Below are positions 18,706 through 26,290 of a stretch of 37,063 nucleotides of DNA, in pieces (position 1 is the first letter of the stretch; the number at the start of each line of letters is the position of its first letter). A model generated the notes under the pieces. That model was not told where the DNA came from. It was given only the letters and a program-made list of their open reading frames with translations, and searched no databases. The stretch comes from Verrucomicrobiota bacterium (GTDB lineage Bacteria; Verrucomicrobiota; Verrucomicrobiia; Verrucomicrobiales; Verrucomicrobiaceae). A program made the translations under genes and the position numbers. The DNA is taken from assembly GCA_026397605.1 (NCBI GenBank), contig JAPLUM010000764.1, positions 1 to 37,063 on the forward strand, in the 5' to 3' direction.

Positions 18706-20328
18706 TCACTTTGCCTGGGCTTTTTGCACTTCCTGGAAGGGAGAAATCACACCCATAGTCGTGGGGATGAATTCATCGGTGCGGAAGCAGCCGGCTGGAA
18801 GGCCTTCGGCGTTGATGAGATTGGCGCCTTCAGGCCATGCGGCCCAGGCGTAGCGGACGCCGATGGGAGTTGGCACTTCCAGGCTGGTGACAATTATTTC
18901 ATTGCCCTCAATCTTGGCCTGCGCCCAGACCCATTTTTTATCTTCGCCTGTGATTTGGAAATGCTTCAGCTCCCCGCCATCACGGGTTTTCAGACCACCG
19001 CCGACGTGATCAAACTGGAGCCGAACTTGGCTGCCTTCGACCAGGGCATTTTTAAACATCGGGCCACTGAAGACGGCATCAGCTCTGCCGTAGTCTTTAG
19101 CCAATGCCCACAGTGCTAGGCGGCGACCGACTTACTGTTTGTTTTTGGGATGGATATTTTTTTCTTCACCGATGTCGTTGGTGACGGCTAGACCAACTTT
19201 CGGCAGGGTAATGGCGGTTAAATATTGGGCCTCTTGCAATTCAGCCCAGGTATCGGCTATGCCAGGTTCTTTGGCGATGGGCAGACTGTTCCCAAAGCTA
19301 GCCAGCTGCACGATGTAAAAGCTAAAGGGATCATTCCAGCGGGTGCGCCAGTCATTGATCATGTTTGGGAGCAGTTCCTGATATTGAAAGGCACGTTTCT
19401 GATTGGATTCACCCTGATACCAAATGGCTCCCTGCACGGCATAAGGGATCAAAGGGGCCACCATGGCATTGAAGAGCACGGCTGGGTGATGCGGTGTCTT
19501 ATTCGGATCATCGGGTGGGCGCGGGGCTGGTGGGACTTTCTTTTTTTGATCAGCGGGCAGTTTAGCGTTCTCTTCGCTGATCTTCTTGGATTCAGCCTGC
19601 CAGGCGACTTTGGCGGCCTCGAACTTTGCAGTTTCAGCGGCCTGATCCCAGCTCTGGCGGATGCCGTCCCAGTCGCTAAGCATCTGCGCTGCGCAGGGAC
19701 GCTCTTCCAGAGATTCACGACTGGTCCAGGCTTCTACCCGAGTACCTCCCCAGGAGGTATTGATGAGCCCGACAGGCACTTTCAGAACCTGATGAAGATG
19801 GCGTCCGTAAAAATAAGCCACCGCAGAAAAGCTACCCACATTGGCGGGATTAGCCTCTTTCCAGGAGCCTTTCACATCTGTCGCCGGCGTCATGCCTGTA
19901 GCACGCTCGACACCGAACATGCGGATCTGGGGTGAATTGGCACCTGCGATTTCTTGCTCTGCGTTGCCGGACTGGCTCACGGTCCATTGCATATTGGATT
20001 GGCCAGAGCAGACCCAGACTTCACCGATGAGCAGGTTCTTCAGTGTAACCGTGTTTTTACCACTGACCGTCAGCTCCTGCGGTTGCGCATTGGCAGCCAT
20101 CGGGTCCAAAGTCACCCGCCATTTGCCGTCCAGATCAGCGCGGGTGACCTGCGTCTGTCCGGCAAAGCGCACGGTGACATCCTCATCCACTGCCGCCGAT
20201 CCCCAGACCGGAACGGGCTTACCCTGCTGGAGCACCAGATTGTCGCTGAAGATGACAGGCAGGCTCACATCAGCCAAGGCGAAGCCTGTGAGAAAGCTCA
20301 GGGTAAAACAATGCAGAAACAGTTTCAT
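18706..20328 (-). pseudogene. Sialate O-acetylesterase (SASA/SGNH) interrupted by an in-frame TAA at 19132-19134
   Basis: Both ORFs (19132-20328, 18706-19104) are in the same frame: ...[35 protein letters not shown].... GQSNM nucleophile motif and D...IHP catalytic region lie upstream of the stop. Confidence 0.8.
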
Positions 20329-20441: not shown

Positions 20442-22505
20442 TTAAAACCGATACGTCACACGGCAGCGGAACATGCGAGGCTCTACGGGGTGGATGTGTG
20501 TGTCATTGGCTGCGAGTTGGCCTGGAGCTCGGCTCTCATAGAAATAGGAGATGTCGTTGTCTTGACGGTTCAGCAGATTCAGGCAATCGACGGCTACTTC
20601 CCAGTTCTTCTTCCGATAGCCAACCGTGGCATTCACCTGAATGCTATCGCGACCGCGTTGGGTATCGGTTTCTTCGAGGGGACTGTTGGCAAACATGCGC
20701 ACACGTGCTCCTGCAAACCAACCTGAATCATTGCCCTGCGCACCGAGATTAAAACCTCCGCTGAACATGATGGGGATACTGTTAGGGATGTGATTGGCAT
20801 TGCTCGGAGCATCGATGAATCGGGCGTAGGTCAGGGCCAGTTCGGCATCGGTGCTGAACCATTTCGTAGGCCTCCAGTAACTGGCTAGCTCGATCCCATA
20901 CCGCTCCGAGCCAGGCCCTGGTTCATTCGTGCCGGCATCACCCACATAGACGAGCTCGCTGTCACTCTGAAGCCAAAAGAGGGCCAGTGTAGTTGTCATG
21001 TTTTTCACTGTCTGACTACGCACACCGATCTCGGCACCCATGGTGCGAACCAAGGCATCTGCGGGATTAGTGCCTGACATGACGCCACGGGCGTCATTGC
21101 TATGAAAACCAGTGCCAAAATTTAGATACAGCTCATTCTTTTTCCAAGGACCAAAGATGGCGCTGAATTTAGGACTGATGATGCCAGCCGTTTCAGCATC
21201 TTGGCCGCTGCTCGTGCTGTCTTGTGGCTCAAAGTAATACAAATCACCACGCAGGCCCAAGACTGTTTTAAACCAGGGTGTCCAACGCGTGACCACTTCC
21301 CCATAAAGACCGATGCTTGACTGTAAAATGTCGTCTTGTCGGATCTCCGTATGACGACGCCGATTTTGCGTCTGCCATAGCCCGATGCCATCGATCAAAT
21401 CAGTACGTGTTTGCAGGCCCAGAGTGATGTCTGATTCCACTCCTAGGAAGTCGCGCTTCTCCCAGGTGCGGGCCACGTTACCCCCAAAGACCCAGCGCTG
21501 CTCGGCTTGCTGAAACTGATCTCCTGTGGGCAACCCTGGATCAAGCTGGTAGGTGAAGTTTGAATAGAGATCCAGGATGTAATAAATCGCGTAAAGATTG
21601 GCGCGAGTGACAACATCATCGTTCCGCTGCTCCATAGCGATATTTAGGCTGTAGCGCTCGCTCTCCCCGCCTGCGGTTGGGTCCAGTGTATCATAGCCGC
21701 CGAGAGTGCCATTATTGACGAGCCTGGAGGGGATCTGATCCGTGCTGGTCCAGGAACCATGATAACCCATGAAGGTCACAGAGAGCTTCGTGTCATCATC
21801 GTTTTTAAACCAGCGTAACAGGCCGTTCCAACGATTGAATTCCTCCGGCTGAGTCCAAGGGCCATCATAATAGTTATACTCCAAAGCGTAGGTGAGGCCC
21901 TGCTGCACACCTTGTTCCAAATTGGATGGTAGATCCAAGGTGCCCGCGACGAGAGCTCGGTAGTAGTTGTATTCGCCAAACTCAACCTTCACCAAATTTT
22001 TCGGCACCACATCCCACAGAAGAAAGTTGGCACTGCCTGCTGTGGATAAATCCCCGTCAGCAGCCGTATAGGTACCTTTGGCATAGTCCAGTGACCCAAT
22101 CATTTCTGGGATCAACGGATTCAGGTCTGTGTAGCCCTGACCATGGGCATGAGTCCGCATGTTCAGCGGCATGCCTTCCAGGCTCATGGCAAAGTCAGTG
22201 CCGTGATCCAGATTGAAGCCACGCAAAAAATACTGGTTCGCCTTTCCTCCACCCGCATGCTGTGTCGCGATCATGCCAGGGATGGCCTCCACGATTTCTC
22301 CACGCCTGAGCAGTGGCCGCGCCAGGAAGTCCGCCTGAGTTGCATGTCCTTTGGATGCGGCGTCCGTTTTCCCGAGTAAATCCTCCGCCTTGCCCTCGAT
22401 CACGATTTCATCCAGCGTCTCCGTTTTTGTCGCTGGGCTGGCTGTTTGCGCCTGGGTGGCTACCCATGACATGAAATAGATTGCTAGAGAAAGACGAATG
22501 ACCAT
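20442..22505 (-). CDS. TonB-dependent outer-membrane receptor
   Basis: Signal peptide MVIRLSLAIYFMSWVATQAQTA, TonB-box-like ETLDEIVIEGKA, plug motif GGKANQYFLRGFNLDHGTDFAMSLEGMPLNMRTHAHGQGYTDLNPLIPE, beta-barrel ending VEPRMFRCRVTYRF. Confidence 0.92.
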   Translation of the reverse strand: MVIRLSLAIYFMSWVATQAQTASPATKTETLDEIVIEGKAEDLLGKTDAASKGHATQADFLARPLLRRGEIVEAIPGMIATQHAGGGKANQYFLRGFNLDHGTDFAMSLEGMPLNMRTHAHGQGYTDLNPLIPEMIGSLDYAKGTYTAADGDLSTAGSANFLLWDVVPKNLVKVEFGEYNYYRALVAGTLDLPSNLEQGVQQGLTYALEYNYYDGPWTQPEEFNRWNGLLRWFKNDDDTKLSVTFMGYHGSWTSTDQIPSRLVNNGTLGGYDTLDPTAGGESERYSLNIAMEQRNDDVVTRANLYAIYYILDLYSNFTYQLDPGLPTGDQFQQAEQRWVFGGNVARTWEKRDFLGVESDITLGLQTRTDLIDGIGLWQTQNRRRHTEIRQDDILQSSIGLYGEVVTRWTPWFKTVLGLRGDLYYFEPQDSTSSGQDAETAGIISPKFSAIFGPWKKNELYLNFGTGFHSNDARGVMSGTNPADALVRTMGAEIGVRSQTVKNMTTTLALFWLQSDSELVYVGDAGTNEPGPGSERYGIELASYWRPTKWFSTDAELALTYARFIDAPSNANHIPNSIPIMFSGGFNLGAQGNDSGWFAGARVRMFANSPLEETDTQRGRDSIQVNATVGYRKKNWEVAVDCLNLLNRQDNDISYFYESRAPGQLAANDTHIHPVEPRMFRCRVTYRF

Positions 22506-22568
22506 AAAAGGATGCTGTGTGCAGCCTTTAGGACGACTTGCTTCAAGCCAGCCCACAAAAAAGATTTC

Positions 22569-23180
22569 TCACAGCACCGTATTCCACCATTCCAGGAGCA
22601 TCTGGCGCGCCCGATAGAGCCGCCCCTCCACGGCACGCACGGAACAATTCAGCACCTCAGCACACTCCACCTGACTGAGACCTTCCACGGTAATGAGCAT
22701 CAGGACGATTCGTAGAGGCTCCGGCAGGATGGCTAGCCCACGATCTAACTTTTCCATCTCGCCCGTCCACTCCGCGCGCACATCAGGAGCATTTTGCTGA
22801 CAGGCAGGCGTGTGATCCAGCTCGTCAAAAGACGACGTTTTCGCTTGTTGCTTCGAGGTGCGCGTTTTTGCACGATCACGGCATAGATTGAGCGCTATCT
22901 GATAAAGCCATGAAGATAGCCTGGCCCGTCCCTTAAACTCCGGCAAAGCCCGCCAAGCATGGACAAAGGCATCCTGACAGACCTCGCGAGCATCCTCTGC
23001 GCAATGTAGCCAGCGGAAACAAAAGCTCATCAGCCGAGATTCATACTGCCGCATGATCCACTCAAAAGCCGCCATATCTCCAGCCTGCGCAGCACGGATC
23101 TTCTTCGCCTCCAAACTTTCGCAGGGAGACGATTCCGTCTCTAAGGCAAAGAGATCAAGGCTCGCGGGTAAGGCTATCAT
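22569..23180 (-). CDS. ECF-type RNA polymerase sigma factor (CnrH-like position)
   Basis: ESRLMSFCFRWLHCAEDAREVCQDAFVHAWRALPEFKGRARLSSWLYQIALNLCRDRAK (sigma2) and LPEPLRIVLMLITVEGLSQVECAEVLNCSVRAVEGRLYRARQMLLE (sigma4). Confidence 0.93.
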   Translation of the reverse strand: MIALPASLDLFALETESSPCESLEAKKIRAAQAGDMAAFEWIMRQYESRLMSFCFRWLHCAEDAREVCQDAFVHAWRALPEFKGRARLSSWLYQIALNLCRDRAKTRTSKQQAKTSSFDELDHTPACQQNAPDVRAEWTGEMEKLDRGLAILPEPLRIVLMLITVEGLSQVECAEVLNCSVRAVEGRLYRARQMLLEWWNTVL

Positions 23181-23616
23181 AGGTCCAATCTAAAAGCCGC
23201 TTGGCCTGCGCAGGCCGCAGGTGGCGTTTCATGGCAAAAAAGTGATCAAGAGTGAGGCGTTGAAGCTCGCCCTGAGACTGGTTCAGGCCTGCTAGAGCTG
23301 ACTTCAAGCGTACGTCATTCGGATCAGCGGCAGAAATGGATTCAGCCACCGCCAATCCCGATCTGCGAATATCCGCCTTGAGCTTCATGCGTTTCACCTC
23401 AAACTCTGCTTCCAACGGCTCCAAGATCGCATGTTGTTCAGGCGTGATGTCTAAATGCTCATGCATCCATGCATGGAAATCAGGCTGCAGATGATCCCCT
23501 GCATGAGCCTCACCATGTCGGTGCAGGACCCAGTCCGTGACCCACCAAGCCGTGCCGCCTGCCATGATCACAGAAGACAGGACCGCGATCAGCAACCATT
23601 TCACGCGTGTCGTCAT
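23155..23616 (-). CDS. TM-anchored periplasmic heavy-metal sensor, CnrX-like
   Basis: N-terminal TM anchor then PDFHAWMHEHLDITPEQHAILEPLEAEFEVKR...ELQRLTLDHFFAMKRHLRPAQAKRLL. HxxxH, E, HxxxM arrangement as recalled for CnrX. Confidence 0.8.
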   Translation of the reverse strand: MTTRVKWLLIAVLSSVIMAGGTAWWVTDWVLHRHGEAHAGDHLQPDFHAWMHEHLDITPEQHAILEPLEAEFEVKRMKLKADIRRSGLAVAESISAADPNDVRLKSALAGLNQSQGELQRLTLDHFFAMKRHLRPAQAKRLLDWTYDSLTREP

Positions 23617-23900
23617 TGGGCTTTAGCCTCTCTAAAAAGGGTCATCGTTGGTGGAGTTGCGTGTGTTTGATCCTGCGAGGCTAACGACCAACAGACGATG
23701 ATCGCAGTCACCACACCCGTTATTAAGGAAGCGATCAGCAGCAGCCTCACAAAGAACCGCCAGCGCTGCGCTCGGCCATCATCGCATTGAAGCCTCTTTT
23801 TGAGTTCGTCGTCTCTCGAAGGCAATAGTCCTCCTGGCGCATCCCATGCAGTACGCTTCAGCAGGCTGTTTAACTCGGTCTCATTCATTTCTGAATCCAC
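23613..23900 (-). CDS. Small single-TM protein, candidate CnrY-like anti-sigma factor
   Basis: About 46-residue cytoplasmic N-terminus, one TM (FFVRLLLIASLITGVVTAIIVCW), short periplasmic tail. ATGA overlap with the CnrX-like gene. Start GTG 23900 or ATG 23888. Confidence 0.65.
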   Translation of the reverse strand: MDSEMNETELNSLLKRTAWDAPGGLLPSRDDELKKRLQCDDGRAQRWRFFVRLLLIASLITGVVTAIIVCWSLASQDQTHATPPTMTLFREAKAQ

Positions 23901-23902
23901 TA
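23892..23902 (-). repeat. Inverted repeat copy A (minus-strand TAGTGGATTCA)
   Basis: Plus strand TGAATCCACTA is the exact reverse complement of TAGTGGATTCA at 23976-23986. Confidence 0.75.
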
Positions 23903-23975
23903 TGAAGTGAATATGAGTTCGATGAAAAGCTAATTTAGAAGAACTCTAACGAAACTTCCTCAACGCATGACTCCG

Positions 23976-23986
23976 TAGTGGATTCA
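23976..23986 (+). repeat. Inverted repeat copy B (TAGTGGATTCA)
   Basis: Exact 11-bp inverted copy. With flanks, ACTCCGTAGTGGATTCA versus ACTTCATAGTGGATTCA (15/17 identical). Confidence 0.75.
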
Positions 23987-24059
23987 ATGACACACTCAAG
24001 GCCTACTCAATGCCAATCCCTGAGGAGCAAGAGGACGACTCTGATGCTTTCTTATACAC

Positions 24060-24983
24060 ATGGATAACCATTCATACTCCCACAGTCGGTGGCTGCGCAA
24101 ATTCGGTCTCGGGGCCTGCGCAGCCGTGTCTCTCCTGAGTCAAGCTCAAGCCGGCGCGCCCGTGCTATCTGCGAAAACAGCCACACCTCCGGTGGACGCT
24201 GTCGATTGGAAGCAGCACACCATCGCGCCAGTGACAAATCCGATCTTCTTTGAAGATGCCGTGATCCGCTCTGAGATCCGCCCCATCTTTGCTTATCATA
24301 ACATTGATGATTCCTTCCTTGGTGGCGGCAATGCTAAGCTATACGCTTTACAGATCCGCTATGCCATCACAGATCGCCTAGCCTTCATCGCCAATCAGGA
24401 TGGCTACTTGCAAGTGCACAATGCAGCCTTGGCCAATCCTGAAGGCTGGATGGATCTGGCGCTCGGCTTCAAATATGCCCTGATTGATGATAAAGCATCA
24501 CAGTTCATTTTAACCCCAGGTCTCACCTTTCATGTGCCAACTGGCGATGATGTCGTCTTCCAAGGCCGTGGGGGTGGCGAGTTCAATCCCTTCATCTCTT
24601 TCCAAAAAGGATTCGGTGATTTCCATATTTCCGGCAATGTGGGTGCCCGCATCCCCGTCACTGGCAACGAACAAAGCACGATTGGCCACTACAGCTTGAT
24701 GCTGGATTATTATGTCTGCCGCTGGTTCATCCCATTTGTGTCTTTCAATGGCTTTACCGTGCTGAATGATGGTCAAAACATCGGCCTTGATACCGAAGGT
24801 TATGATGTGATGAACTTCGGTGCTAGCCAAGCCAATGGTCGCACACAAGGCATGCTCGGTGTCGGCTTCCGCTCCCGCCTATTGGACAACTTGGATTTAG
24901 GTGTTGCCTATGAAAAAGCCGCCATCAAACCTTACGGGCTGACAGAAGACCGCTTCACCTTCGATCTTTGTATCCGCTTCTAA
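24060..24983 (+). CDS. Predicted outer-membrane beta-barrel protein (hypothetical)
   Basis: Signal-peptide-like N-terminus (CAAVSLLSQAQAG), alternating beta strands, C-terminal ...FTFDLCIRF aromatic end typical of OM proteins. Confidence 0.65.
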   Translation: MDNHSYSHSRWLRKFGLGACAAVSLLSQAQAGAPVLSAKTATPPVDAVDWKQHTIAPVTNPIFFEDAVIRSEIRPIFAYHNIDDSFLGGGNAKLYALQIRYAITDRLAFIANQDGYLQVHNAALANPEGWMDLALGFKYALIDDKASQFILTPGLTFHVPTGDDVVFQGRGGGEFNPFISFQKGFGDFHISGNVGARIPVTGNEQSTIGHYSLMLDYYVCRWFIPFVSFNGFTVLNDGQNIGLDTEGYDVMNFGASQANGRTQGMLGVGFRSRLLDNLDLGVAYEKAAIKPYGLTEDRFTFDLCIRF

Positions 24984-25117: not shown

Positions 25118-26290
25118 TTACCCCAGCACGTTTTTTCTCAAATCTCGCATCGAAAACAGAGTACCATCGCCGCCCTTGAGTCGGCGTGCTCCAGTCTTCC
25201 GCTTCGGGCCAAATCGACTTCGATTCTCAGCGAAGATACTTTCCACGAACTCCTGACTGCCCAACACCAATCCATCGCTGAAATAACGCACTCGTAGCCT
25301 CACAAGCTCCATTTGGCTCAGTTTCCCCTTTTCCTTGAGCACCTGTCGCGCCTCATCTGCCGTCACTCCTCTGCGCACCACATTCACATTTTGCGCATCC
25401 TTGACCTCCACGCCCGTGGAAAATAGCAAGCAGCGATAGGAATCTGCGCCGCCATTTTCCCAACCATCCACGGGCGTTCCCGTCACCTTGCTAAGCCCTC
25501 GCTGCGCCTTTCGTATCCCACTCACGGCCTCCGCATAACCGCACCAGCGATAGTCCTTCGGATCATCCACCAAGCCTGCACGCACGGGATTGAGATCAAT
25601 ATAAGTCGCCATCGTGTGTAGAGGCTCACCTTTGCCCTCCACCATCACACTTTTATAGCGATCCATCCAAAGCGTCCCCTTTCTCTCGCGACGTTTATTA
25701 AACCAGCGACTGAATCGCTCCTTCACCTCCTTCATGTAGGTAGCTAGATCACAAAACCGCTTCTTGATTCCCTCCAGCTTCGTCTGAACTAGAGCTTCAA
25801 GACCCATCTTTCGGAGATCAGCGATTTCAGCTCTCAAAAAATCCACGTAAGCCTTGCTATAAAGCACTCGCAAATGCGCCAGCAACCGCTCCTCGCCCTC
25901 TGGACCAGCGAAACGTTCCAGCCACATCTCCTTTTTTGGCACCTCCACCAGTGCATGGAAATGGTTCCCCATAATGCAGTAGGTGACCAGTTTCACGCCG
26001 GAGAACTCCGCCAGCCTCCAAAGCACCCGCTTAAGAGCCTCTTTTTCCACATCATCAAAGAACACCTCGCCACCACAAGTCCGTGACATCACATGGTAAG
26101 TGTAACTCTCCAGCGCCCCCTTCCCAAGGATCCTCCTCCGTCCTCCAGACCAGCTTCGCGCCGTCAAATAAGGCCCCGTCTTTACATTGATGCCAACCAA
26201 CTGGCTTTCCCACAATTTATTCTGATTATCAACCAATTCCATTTCTTTCATGACAATGAAATCGCCTAATCTCGAAAACAATTCAAGCAT
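25118..26290 (-). mobile_element. REP-associated tyrosine transposase (RAYT, Y1_Tnp/IS200-like)
   Basis: YTYHVMSRTCGGEVFFDDVEKEALKRVLWRLAEFSGVKLVTYCIMGNHFHALVEVP (HUH), YMKEVKERFSRWFNKRRERKGTLWMDRYKSVMVE, ATYIDLNPVRAGLVDDPKDYRWCGYAEA. Confidence 0.92.

Follow-up and report, generated by a model that had tools for sequence, protein, structure and literature searches.

Why would a metal-excess alarm run a metal importer? This question is raised by a four-gene locus in a 37,063-nucleotide (nt) stretch of DNA from a Verrucomicrobiaceae bacterium (positions 1 to 37,063 of contig JAPLUM010000764.1, assembly GCA_026397605.1; the whole stretch is hereafter called the window), in which a CnrYXH-type trans-envelope signaling module is followed by a gene for a TonB-dependent receptor. 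CnrYXH is the textbook case of an alarm that detects nickel/cobalt in the periplasm and triggers efflux. The window belongs to a 6.2-Mb genome in 900 contigs, with 87% completeness and 4.5% contamination. By gene anatomy and homology, the parts of the locus are a CnrX-class sensor, a CnrY-like protein, an extracytoplasmic function (ECF) sigma factor, and a receptor of a predicted nickel/cobalt import family. We modestly favor the reading that the module is wired to this nickel/cobalt-type receptor and drives substrate-induced uptake.

The module and its CnrX-class sensor

The original prediction, made from the DNA letters alone, described four minus-strand genes with an ATGA overlap, a 26-nt overlap, and a receptor start 64 nt downstream of the sigma factor gene, all of which was reproduced base for base. 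The features of the string, in order of transcription, are as follows.

23889..24059, minus strand: upstream region expected to hold the module promoter; the motif of related modules was not detected here
23613..23900, minus strand: CnrY-like small protein with a single transmembrane (TM) segment, putative anti-sigma factor (open reading frame; annotated GTG start at 23900, 95 amino acids [aa])
23155..23616, minus strand: CnrX-like membrane-anchored periplasmic metal sensor, 153 aa (PF13801, 1e-11; NccX/CnrX in the PDB; predicted fold)
23410..23475, minus strand: codons of the first three metal ligands, H48 (23475-23473), H52 (23463-23461), and E69 (23412-23410), aligned with CnrX H42, H46, and E63
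23230..23244, minus strand: codons of the last two metal ligands, H125 (23244-23242) and M129 (23232-23230), aligned with CnrX H119 and M123
22569..23180, minus strand: ECF sigma factor in the CnrH position, 203 aa (Pfam and PDB matches; 33% identity to CnrH)
22506..22568, minus strand: gap of 63 nt between the sigma factor stop and the receptor start, without a terminator-like site on the minus strand
20442..22505, minus strand: TonB-dependent receptor, 687 aa, ATG at 22505 (PF07715, 1e-8)

The cnrY-like and cnrX-like genes overlap by 4 nt (ATGA) and the cnrX-like and sigma factor genes by 26 nt, and the receptor ATG lies 64 nt past the sigma factor stop, that is, with 63 nt between them. The module had also been called “fused” to the receptor, which holds in the sense of one putative operon but not of a gene fusion. 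Similarly, a first gene product of about 95 aa agrees with the annotation, but a 91-aa form starting at the internal ATG at 23888 is probably the actual product, because the counterpart in the closest relative (locus L126, from a Verrucomicrobiaceae bacterium) begins with MNEHDLNQML. This relative has the same operon, with a receptor 86% identical to that of the window, which argues against a misbinned contig.

The 153-aa protein has an N-terminal TM segment and matches the Pfam family Metal_resist (PF13801, 1e-11). Its best relatives of solved structure in a sequence search of the PDB are NccX (9e-8) and CnrX (6e-7), with 26% identity to CnrX. For an AlphaFold2 model from the sensor's own clade (predicted local distance difference test score [pLDDT], 80.9), the 15 best fold matches are all CnrX or NccX (E-values from 1e-4 to 1.5e-3), and ZraP-type proteins rank below them. 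Judged from these alignments and the model, the protein is a real CnrX homolog. An identity as a Spy/CpxP/ZraP chaperone was considered and rejected, given the absence of a match to LTXXQ (PF07813) and the fold ranking; the grouping with Spy/CpxP proteins named in the original prediction as a possible refutation was thus not seen, and CnrX and NccX came out best in both searches.

All five metal ligands of CnrX (the N/O/S set HHEHM) are kept in the window sensor in an alignment with CnrX, NccX, and their homologs. Across the 32 aligned sequences from Verrucomicrobiota, plasmids of Proteobacteria, and C. metallidurans, the set is complete in 30; in the two exceptions, the second histidine is replaced by tyrosine or glutamine, so that the five ligands vary hardly at all in 31 homologs. 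The genome that contains the window encodes a second CnrY-X-sigma-like module (contig C220, locus L114; 10244-10651, 9762-10247, 9179-9748, and 11140-13407, all on the minus strand), which adjoins a P-type ATPase that carries heavy-metal-binding domains, as well as a small protein rich in cysteines. Its CnrX-like paralog is divergent and rich in cysteines and has LRHHT at the HHEHM columns, so HHEHM is not merely a constraint of the fold and can disappear from a module that is otherwise retained. The L114 module is possibly a version for copper or a thiophilic metal.

In the CnrY-like protein, a single TM segment is predicted at residues 49-67 (numbering of the 91-aa form). The search with family models that had been proposed for this protein found no matching model, in Pfam included, but its length and single TM segment are those of CnrY, and it could be aligned with the proteins in the CnrY position of related modules and of C. 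metallidurans. A small single-TM protein is encoded 5' of the sensor in nearly every related module, often with an ATGA overlap. In the clade of modules linked to receptors, the periplasmic tail of this protein carries a PPxLxLF-like motif, which could plausibly be the contact with CnrX. Position and topology make the CnrY-like protein a putative binding partner of the sigma factor. The latter is a plain ECF factor (Sigma70_r2, 3e-16; Sigma70_r4_2, 1.5e-12; Pfam) that is identical to CnrH at 33% of 180 positions; its PDB matches include CnrH (1.9e-16), although RpoE/SigH-type factors score higher.

Thus, as had been claimed, the module agrees in gene order, protein sizes, and topologies with cnrY-cnrX-cnrH, and the CnrYXH-type assignment is borne out by the order, the sequence and fold matches, and the five ligands. 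The module shares with cnrYXH of C. metallidurans CH34 (plasmid pMOL28) and with nccYXH the order Y-X-H, the topology, the CnrX fold, the five ligands, and an ECF sigma factor; the products of cnrYXH are 95, 148, and 191 aa long compared with 91 to 95, 153, and 203 aa in the window. It differs in that cnrYXH is followed by the cnrCBA resistance-nodulation-division (RND) pump and the window module by a TonB receptor, and in that the window module, at only 26% (CnrX) and 33% (sigma factor) identity, groups with other receptor-linked modules in a clade of their own. It is a variant of CnrYXH and not a separate class of system.

The receptor and its predicted nickel/cobalt family

The 687-aa receptor consists of a signal peptide, a plug domain (PF07715, 1e-8), and a barrel, and its AlphaFold2 model (pLDDT, 84.8; predicted template modeling score, 0.86) adopts the TonB-receptor fold. 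The fold names no ligand: matches of similar quality, at 13-17% identity, were obtained with PqqU, FoxA, FecA, and OprC, and for this reason a PqqU/YncD profile match was not used as a claim of function.

The juxtaposition of an ECF sigma factor, membrane regulators, and a TonB receptor resembles FecIRA and FpvIR, and substrate-induced uptake would match these systems. However, cell-surface signaling of the FecIRA type, in which the receptor itself would sense the ligand and signal to the anti-sigma factor, is hardly credible here and is largely refuted by domain content. A Pfam scan found no N-terminal signaling (STN) domain in the receptor, the membrane proteins are CnrX-like and CnrY-like and not FecR-like, and the sensor is a separate periplasmic protein.

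The sequence relatives of the receptor are more informative than its fold matches. Plasmid-encoded relatives show 39-44% identity, and the receptor of plasmid pHCG3, encoded beside nikR and hypB, is 39% identical to that of the window over 91% of the length. The relative on Cupriavidus necator pHG1 adjoins HoxN and a regulatory hydrogenase; that on Afipia pHCG3, NikR and hyp genes; that of Methylomagnum, NikR; that of Bradyrhizobium, HoxN and hydrogenase genes; that of Paraburkholderia, NikR and HoxN; and that of Methylorubrum, cobalamin genes. The proteins pHCG3_081, Bll6948, and Daro_3944 form a predicted nickel/cobalt receptor cluster (cluster 987; PMC3400609); we equate the pHCG3 receptor with pHCG3_081 from the plasmid and the gene context. 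With these predicted receptors, the window receptor shares seven histidines that are near-invariant in 37 receptors from several phyla. On this basis, the receptor belongs to a family predicted to import nickel/cobalt, a substrate that is predicted for all of its members alike. Unlike the relatives in other phyla that are encoded with NikR, HoxN, or hydrogenase genes, the window receptor is part of a CnrYXH-type operon. The idea of a metal-responsive circuit for outer-membrane traffic of a “metal or metallophore” is thereby supported and narrowed to a predicted nickel/cobalt receptor family.

In a neighborhood survey of 79 genome loci encoding such receptors (29 from Verrucomicrobiota and 50 from other phyla), NikR was found within 3 kb of the receptor at 12 of the 50 loci from other phyla but at none of the 29 from Verrucomicrobiota. 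Conversely, a CnrYXH module stands beside the receptor at 6 of the 29 and at none of the 50. The HupE/UreJ nickel permease is encoded beside the receptor at 8 of the 29 verrucomicrobial loci, and at one further locus of this phylum the receptor is followed by HupE (PF13795, 7e-42); within the stretches examined, neither HoxN nor NikR was found beside the Verrucomicrobiota receptors. Control of the receptor by a cobalamin or NiCo riboswitch was considered and rejected, as no Rfam hit reached the gathering threshold in the window or at the 29 receptor loci.

The metal could instead be copper or another metal, with the receptor carrying a copper or other metal complex and not nickel/cobalt. CnrYXH-like modules with the full HHEHM set precede or flank copper resistance genes on alphaproteobacterial plasmids (L211-L214), so HHEHM alone cannot tell nickel from copper; these modules also share the Y-X-sigma order with the window. 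Furthermore, CnrX has been crystallized with copper (3epv), and a structural comparison of the receptor retrieves OprC among others. Nevertheless, we regard this alternative as rather improbable, given that the relatives of the receptor are tied to nickel genes and not to copper genes and that OprC is just one of many equally remote barrel matches (13-17% identity). The outputs differ as well: those of the plasmid modules are copper resistance proteins (multicopper oxidase, CopB, CopC, and CopD), and the putative output of the window module is an importer-type receptor.

Recurrence of the coupling and other outputs of the module

Of 390 sampled Verrucomicrobiota genomes, 19 yielded a CnrX homolog and 32 yielded the receptor; coverage of CnrX across other phyla was confined to plasmids. 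The survey for CnrX-sigma-TonB neighborhoods suggested in the original prediction revealed a conserved arrangement: the module lies directly 5' of the receptor, on the same strand, at 11 Verrucomicrobiota loci, the window included. Four are in genomes of another family of the same order (L071, L072, L075, and L076, with a 0.75-kb stretch between module and receptor in L075) and six are further records (L126, L133, L135, L137, L141, and L149), of which L137 comes from a cultured organism, Haloferula sp. BvORR071. The identical four-gene order at 10 other loci places the arrangement beyond chance. For the 5 of 21 CnrX loci located within 3 kb of a receptor, the probability of chance adjacency is about 5e-11 by a rough binomial estimate that ignores relatedness. 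A search of the open-access literature, which did not extend to subscription papers or to the complete ECF classification, yielded no publication that connects CnrX-type sensors with TonB receptors.

In the receptor tree, the coupling requires at least three separate changes, and the receptors of the window and L126 are nested in a clade whose other members lack the module. In the tree of CnrX plus the sigma factor, all receptor-linked modules fall into one clade (support, 100/99), which includes just one unlinked module, an additional copy whose genome carries a linked module too. The cnrCBA-type, P-type-ATPase-near, and copper-linked modules fall outside this clade. Together, the two trees indicate that one sensor subfamily is tied to the receptor family and that this association arose or disappeared on several occasions.

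Two further observations concern uncoupled copies. In the genus and family of the window, the orthologous receptor is preceded by a membrane protein of about 140 aa (LYLLALFQLLGGPLVLG..., with a proline-rich C-terminus) that has no Pfam match (L065:9866-10282, minus strand; L067, L068, L074, and L128). One genome (G310) encodes, on contig C4, a module without a receptor (L097) about 1 kb 3' of a HupE/UreJ permease gene, and also a receptor without a module (L081), in addition to the complete coupled operon L071.

Elsewhere, the module has other outputs. In other Verrucomicrobiota, it is followed by genes for an OEP, an adaptor (HlyD_D23), and an RND permease of the CusA/CzcA type (L103), that is, a cnrCBA-like operon, and L107 and L109 are likewise cnrCBA-like by gene sizes, with an OEP match also in L109. 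Considering the copper-linked plasmid modules as well, CnrYXH is a swappable unit that serves nickel/cobalt efflux, copper resistance, or a receptor. The sigma factor of the window could mainly control metal efflux in trans, which would leave the receptor a secondary role in the operon or an incidental place there. The statement that no RND genes are adjacent is correct at the locus, where the neighbor is the TonB receptor, but does not extend to the genome: away from the window, it has two RND genes that score above the cut-off for CusA/CzcA. However, apart from one weak fragment, no module-like sigma factor or CnrX adjoins these pumps, and the repeated attachment of one receptor family is unexpected for a passenger, so we consider control of efflux in trans very unlikely.

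Flanking the string are three other features.

24060-24983, plus strand: divergent outer-membrane beta-barrel protein with a weak PF13557 match, sharing its upstream region with the module
25118-26290, minus strand: protein with an IS200-like Y1 transposase domain (PF01797, 3e-12), possibly of the type associated with repetitive extragenic palindromes
18706-20328, minus strand: SASA (sialate O-acetylesterase-like) protein apparently in two frames, 20328-19132 (ending in ...NIHPKNKQ) and 19104-18706

The beta-barrel gene was rejected as part of the system, having no homolog near other modules. The split of the SASA gene suggests a frameshift or an assembly error.

Proposed signal transduction and the polarity of the switch

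In C. metallidurans, cobalt or nickel bound to CnrX weakens the hold of CnrY on CnrH; Met123 of CnrX is required, and zinc-bound CnrX is inactive (PMC7689651). By analogy, the CnrY-like protein of the window would hold the sigma factor at the inner membrane in the resting state. Periplasmic Ni(II) or Co(II) would bind to H48, H52, E69, H125, and M129 of the CnrX-like sensor, and the metal-bound sensor would loosen the CnrY-like protein and free the sigma factor. The freed sigma factor would then transcribe its own operon, yielding more receptor. If the module works as CnrYXH does, periplasmic nickel or cobalt would raise the level of its own receptor, and uptake would be induced by its substrate in a positive feedback loop.

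We searched for regulatory sites that bear on this scheme. No terminator-like site was found on the minus strand of the 63-nt gap, and no convincing sigma-70 promoter was detected (two promoter-like sites in the region compared with 2.6 expected by chance). An ECF-type motif, TTGAGGGNNN-N12/13-NCGTTWAA (short form, TTGAGGG-N-CGTTWAA), was derived from six modules that are not part of the receptor clade; in the held-out module L107, it ranked first among 16,969 positions. It occurs upstream of cnrY in L098, L099, L104, L105, L107, L109, and L110. In other members of the receptor clade, this motif is weak. Another element found by eye, TTTCGTC-N20-CTAGCC, lies upstream of cnrY in just 3 of 12 loci. 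Because the window has no clear copy of the motif, we infer from the conserved operon, and not from a promoter site, that this sigma factor controls the receptor.

A HupE/UreJ permease is encoded in 9 of the 11 genomes with the coupled operon, including the closest relative, which also has urease. Nickel enzymes were detected in 6 of the 11 (urease in five and nickel superoxide dismutase [Ni-SOD] in one, the Ni-SOD search having covered the five genomes outside the six further records), and [NiFe]-hydrogenase in none of 13 genomes tested.

Several points weigh against substrate-induced uptake. An importer switched on by a sensor of metal excess is physiologically odd. The 87%-complete genome of the window yielded no urease, [NiFe]-hydrogenase, Ni-SOD, HupE, or NiCoT. 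In the genus of the window, an orthologous receptor exists without the module. The ECF-type motif was not detected in the window, where the best site near cnrY ranks 25th, and transcription of the receptor by the sigma factor is predicted from sequence comparison.

Alternatively, the polarity of the switch could be inverted, such that metal-free CnrX releases the sigma factor and metal-bound CnrX keeps it captive; the receptor would then be made under nickel/cobalt scarcity, and the module would replace NikR, a repressor that depends on nickel. The neighborhood survey is compatible with this possibility, as NikR (12 of 50 loci in other phyla, none of 29 in Verrucomicrobiota) and the module (none of 50 and 6 of 29, respectively) seem to substitute for each other. 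Uptake under scarcity is the logic of NikR, and a clade of their own leaves the receptor-linked sensors room for altered signaling. Yet the full ligand set, including the methionine that couples binding to activation, is identical to that of the efflux- and copper-linked sensors, and no change in the switch is visible in the sequence. We therefore hold inverted polarity to be a serious but distinctly less probable alternative, and substrate-induced uptake remains the reading that we prefer.

TonB-dependent nickel import under a nickel-responsive regulator has a parallel, as far as the published descriptions go, in FrpB4 and FecA3 of Helicobacter (PMC7689651 and PMC11247825). There, the regulator NikR is a cytoplasmic repressor, whereas in the window it would be an envelope-spanning sigma factor circuit. 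The finding is that an efflux-alarm sensor, with its ligands intact, has been repeatedly attached to a predicted nickel/cobalt import receptor. Nickel/cobalt import by the receptor family and the choice between a metal-activated and an inverted sensor are both directly testable. If the inverted polarity is true, the module would be an ECF sigma factor system for nickel/cobalt starvation, standing in for NikR in this clade of Verrucomicrobiota.

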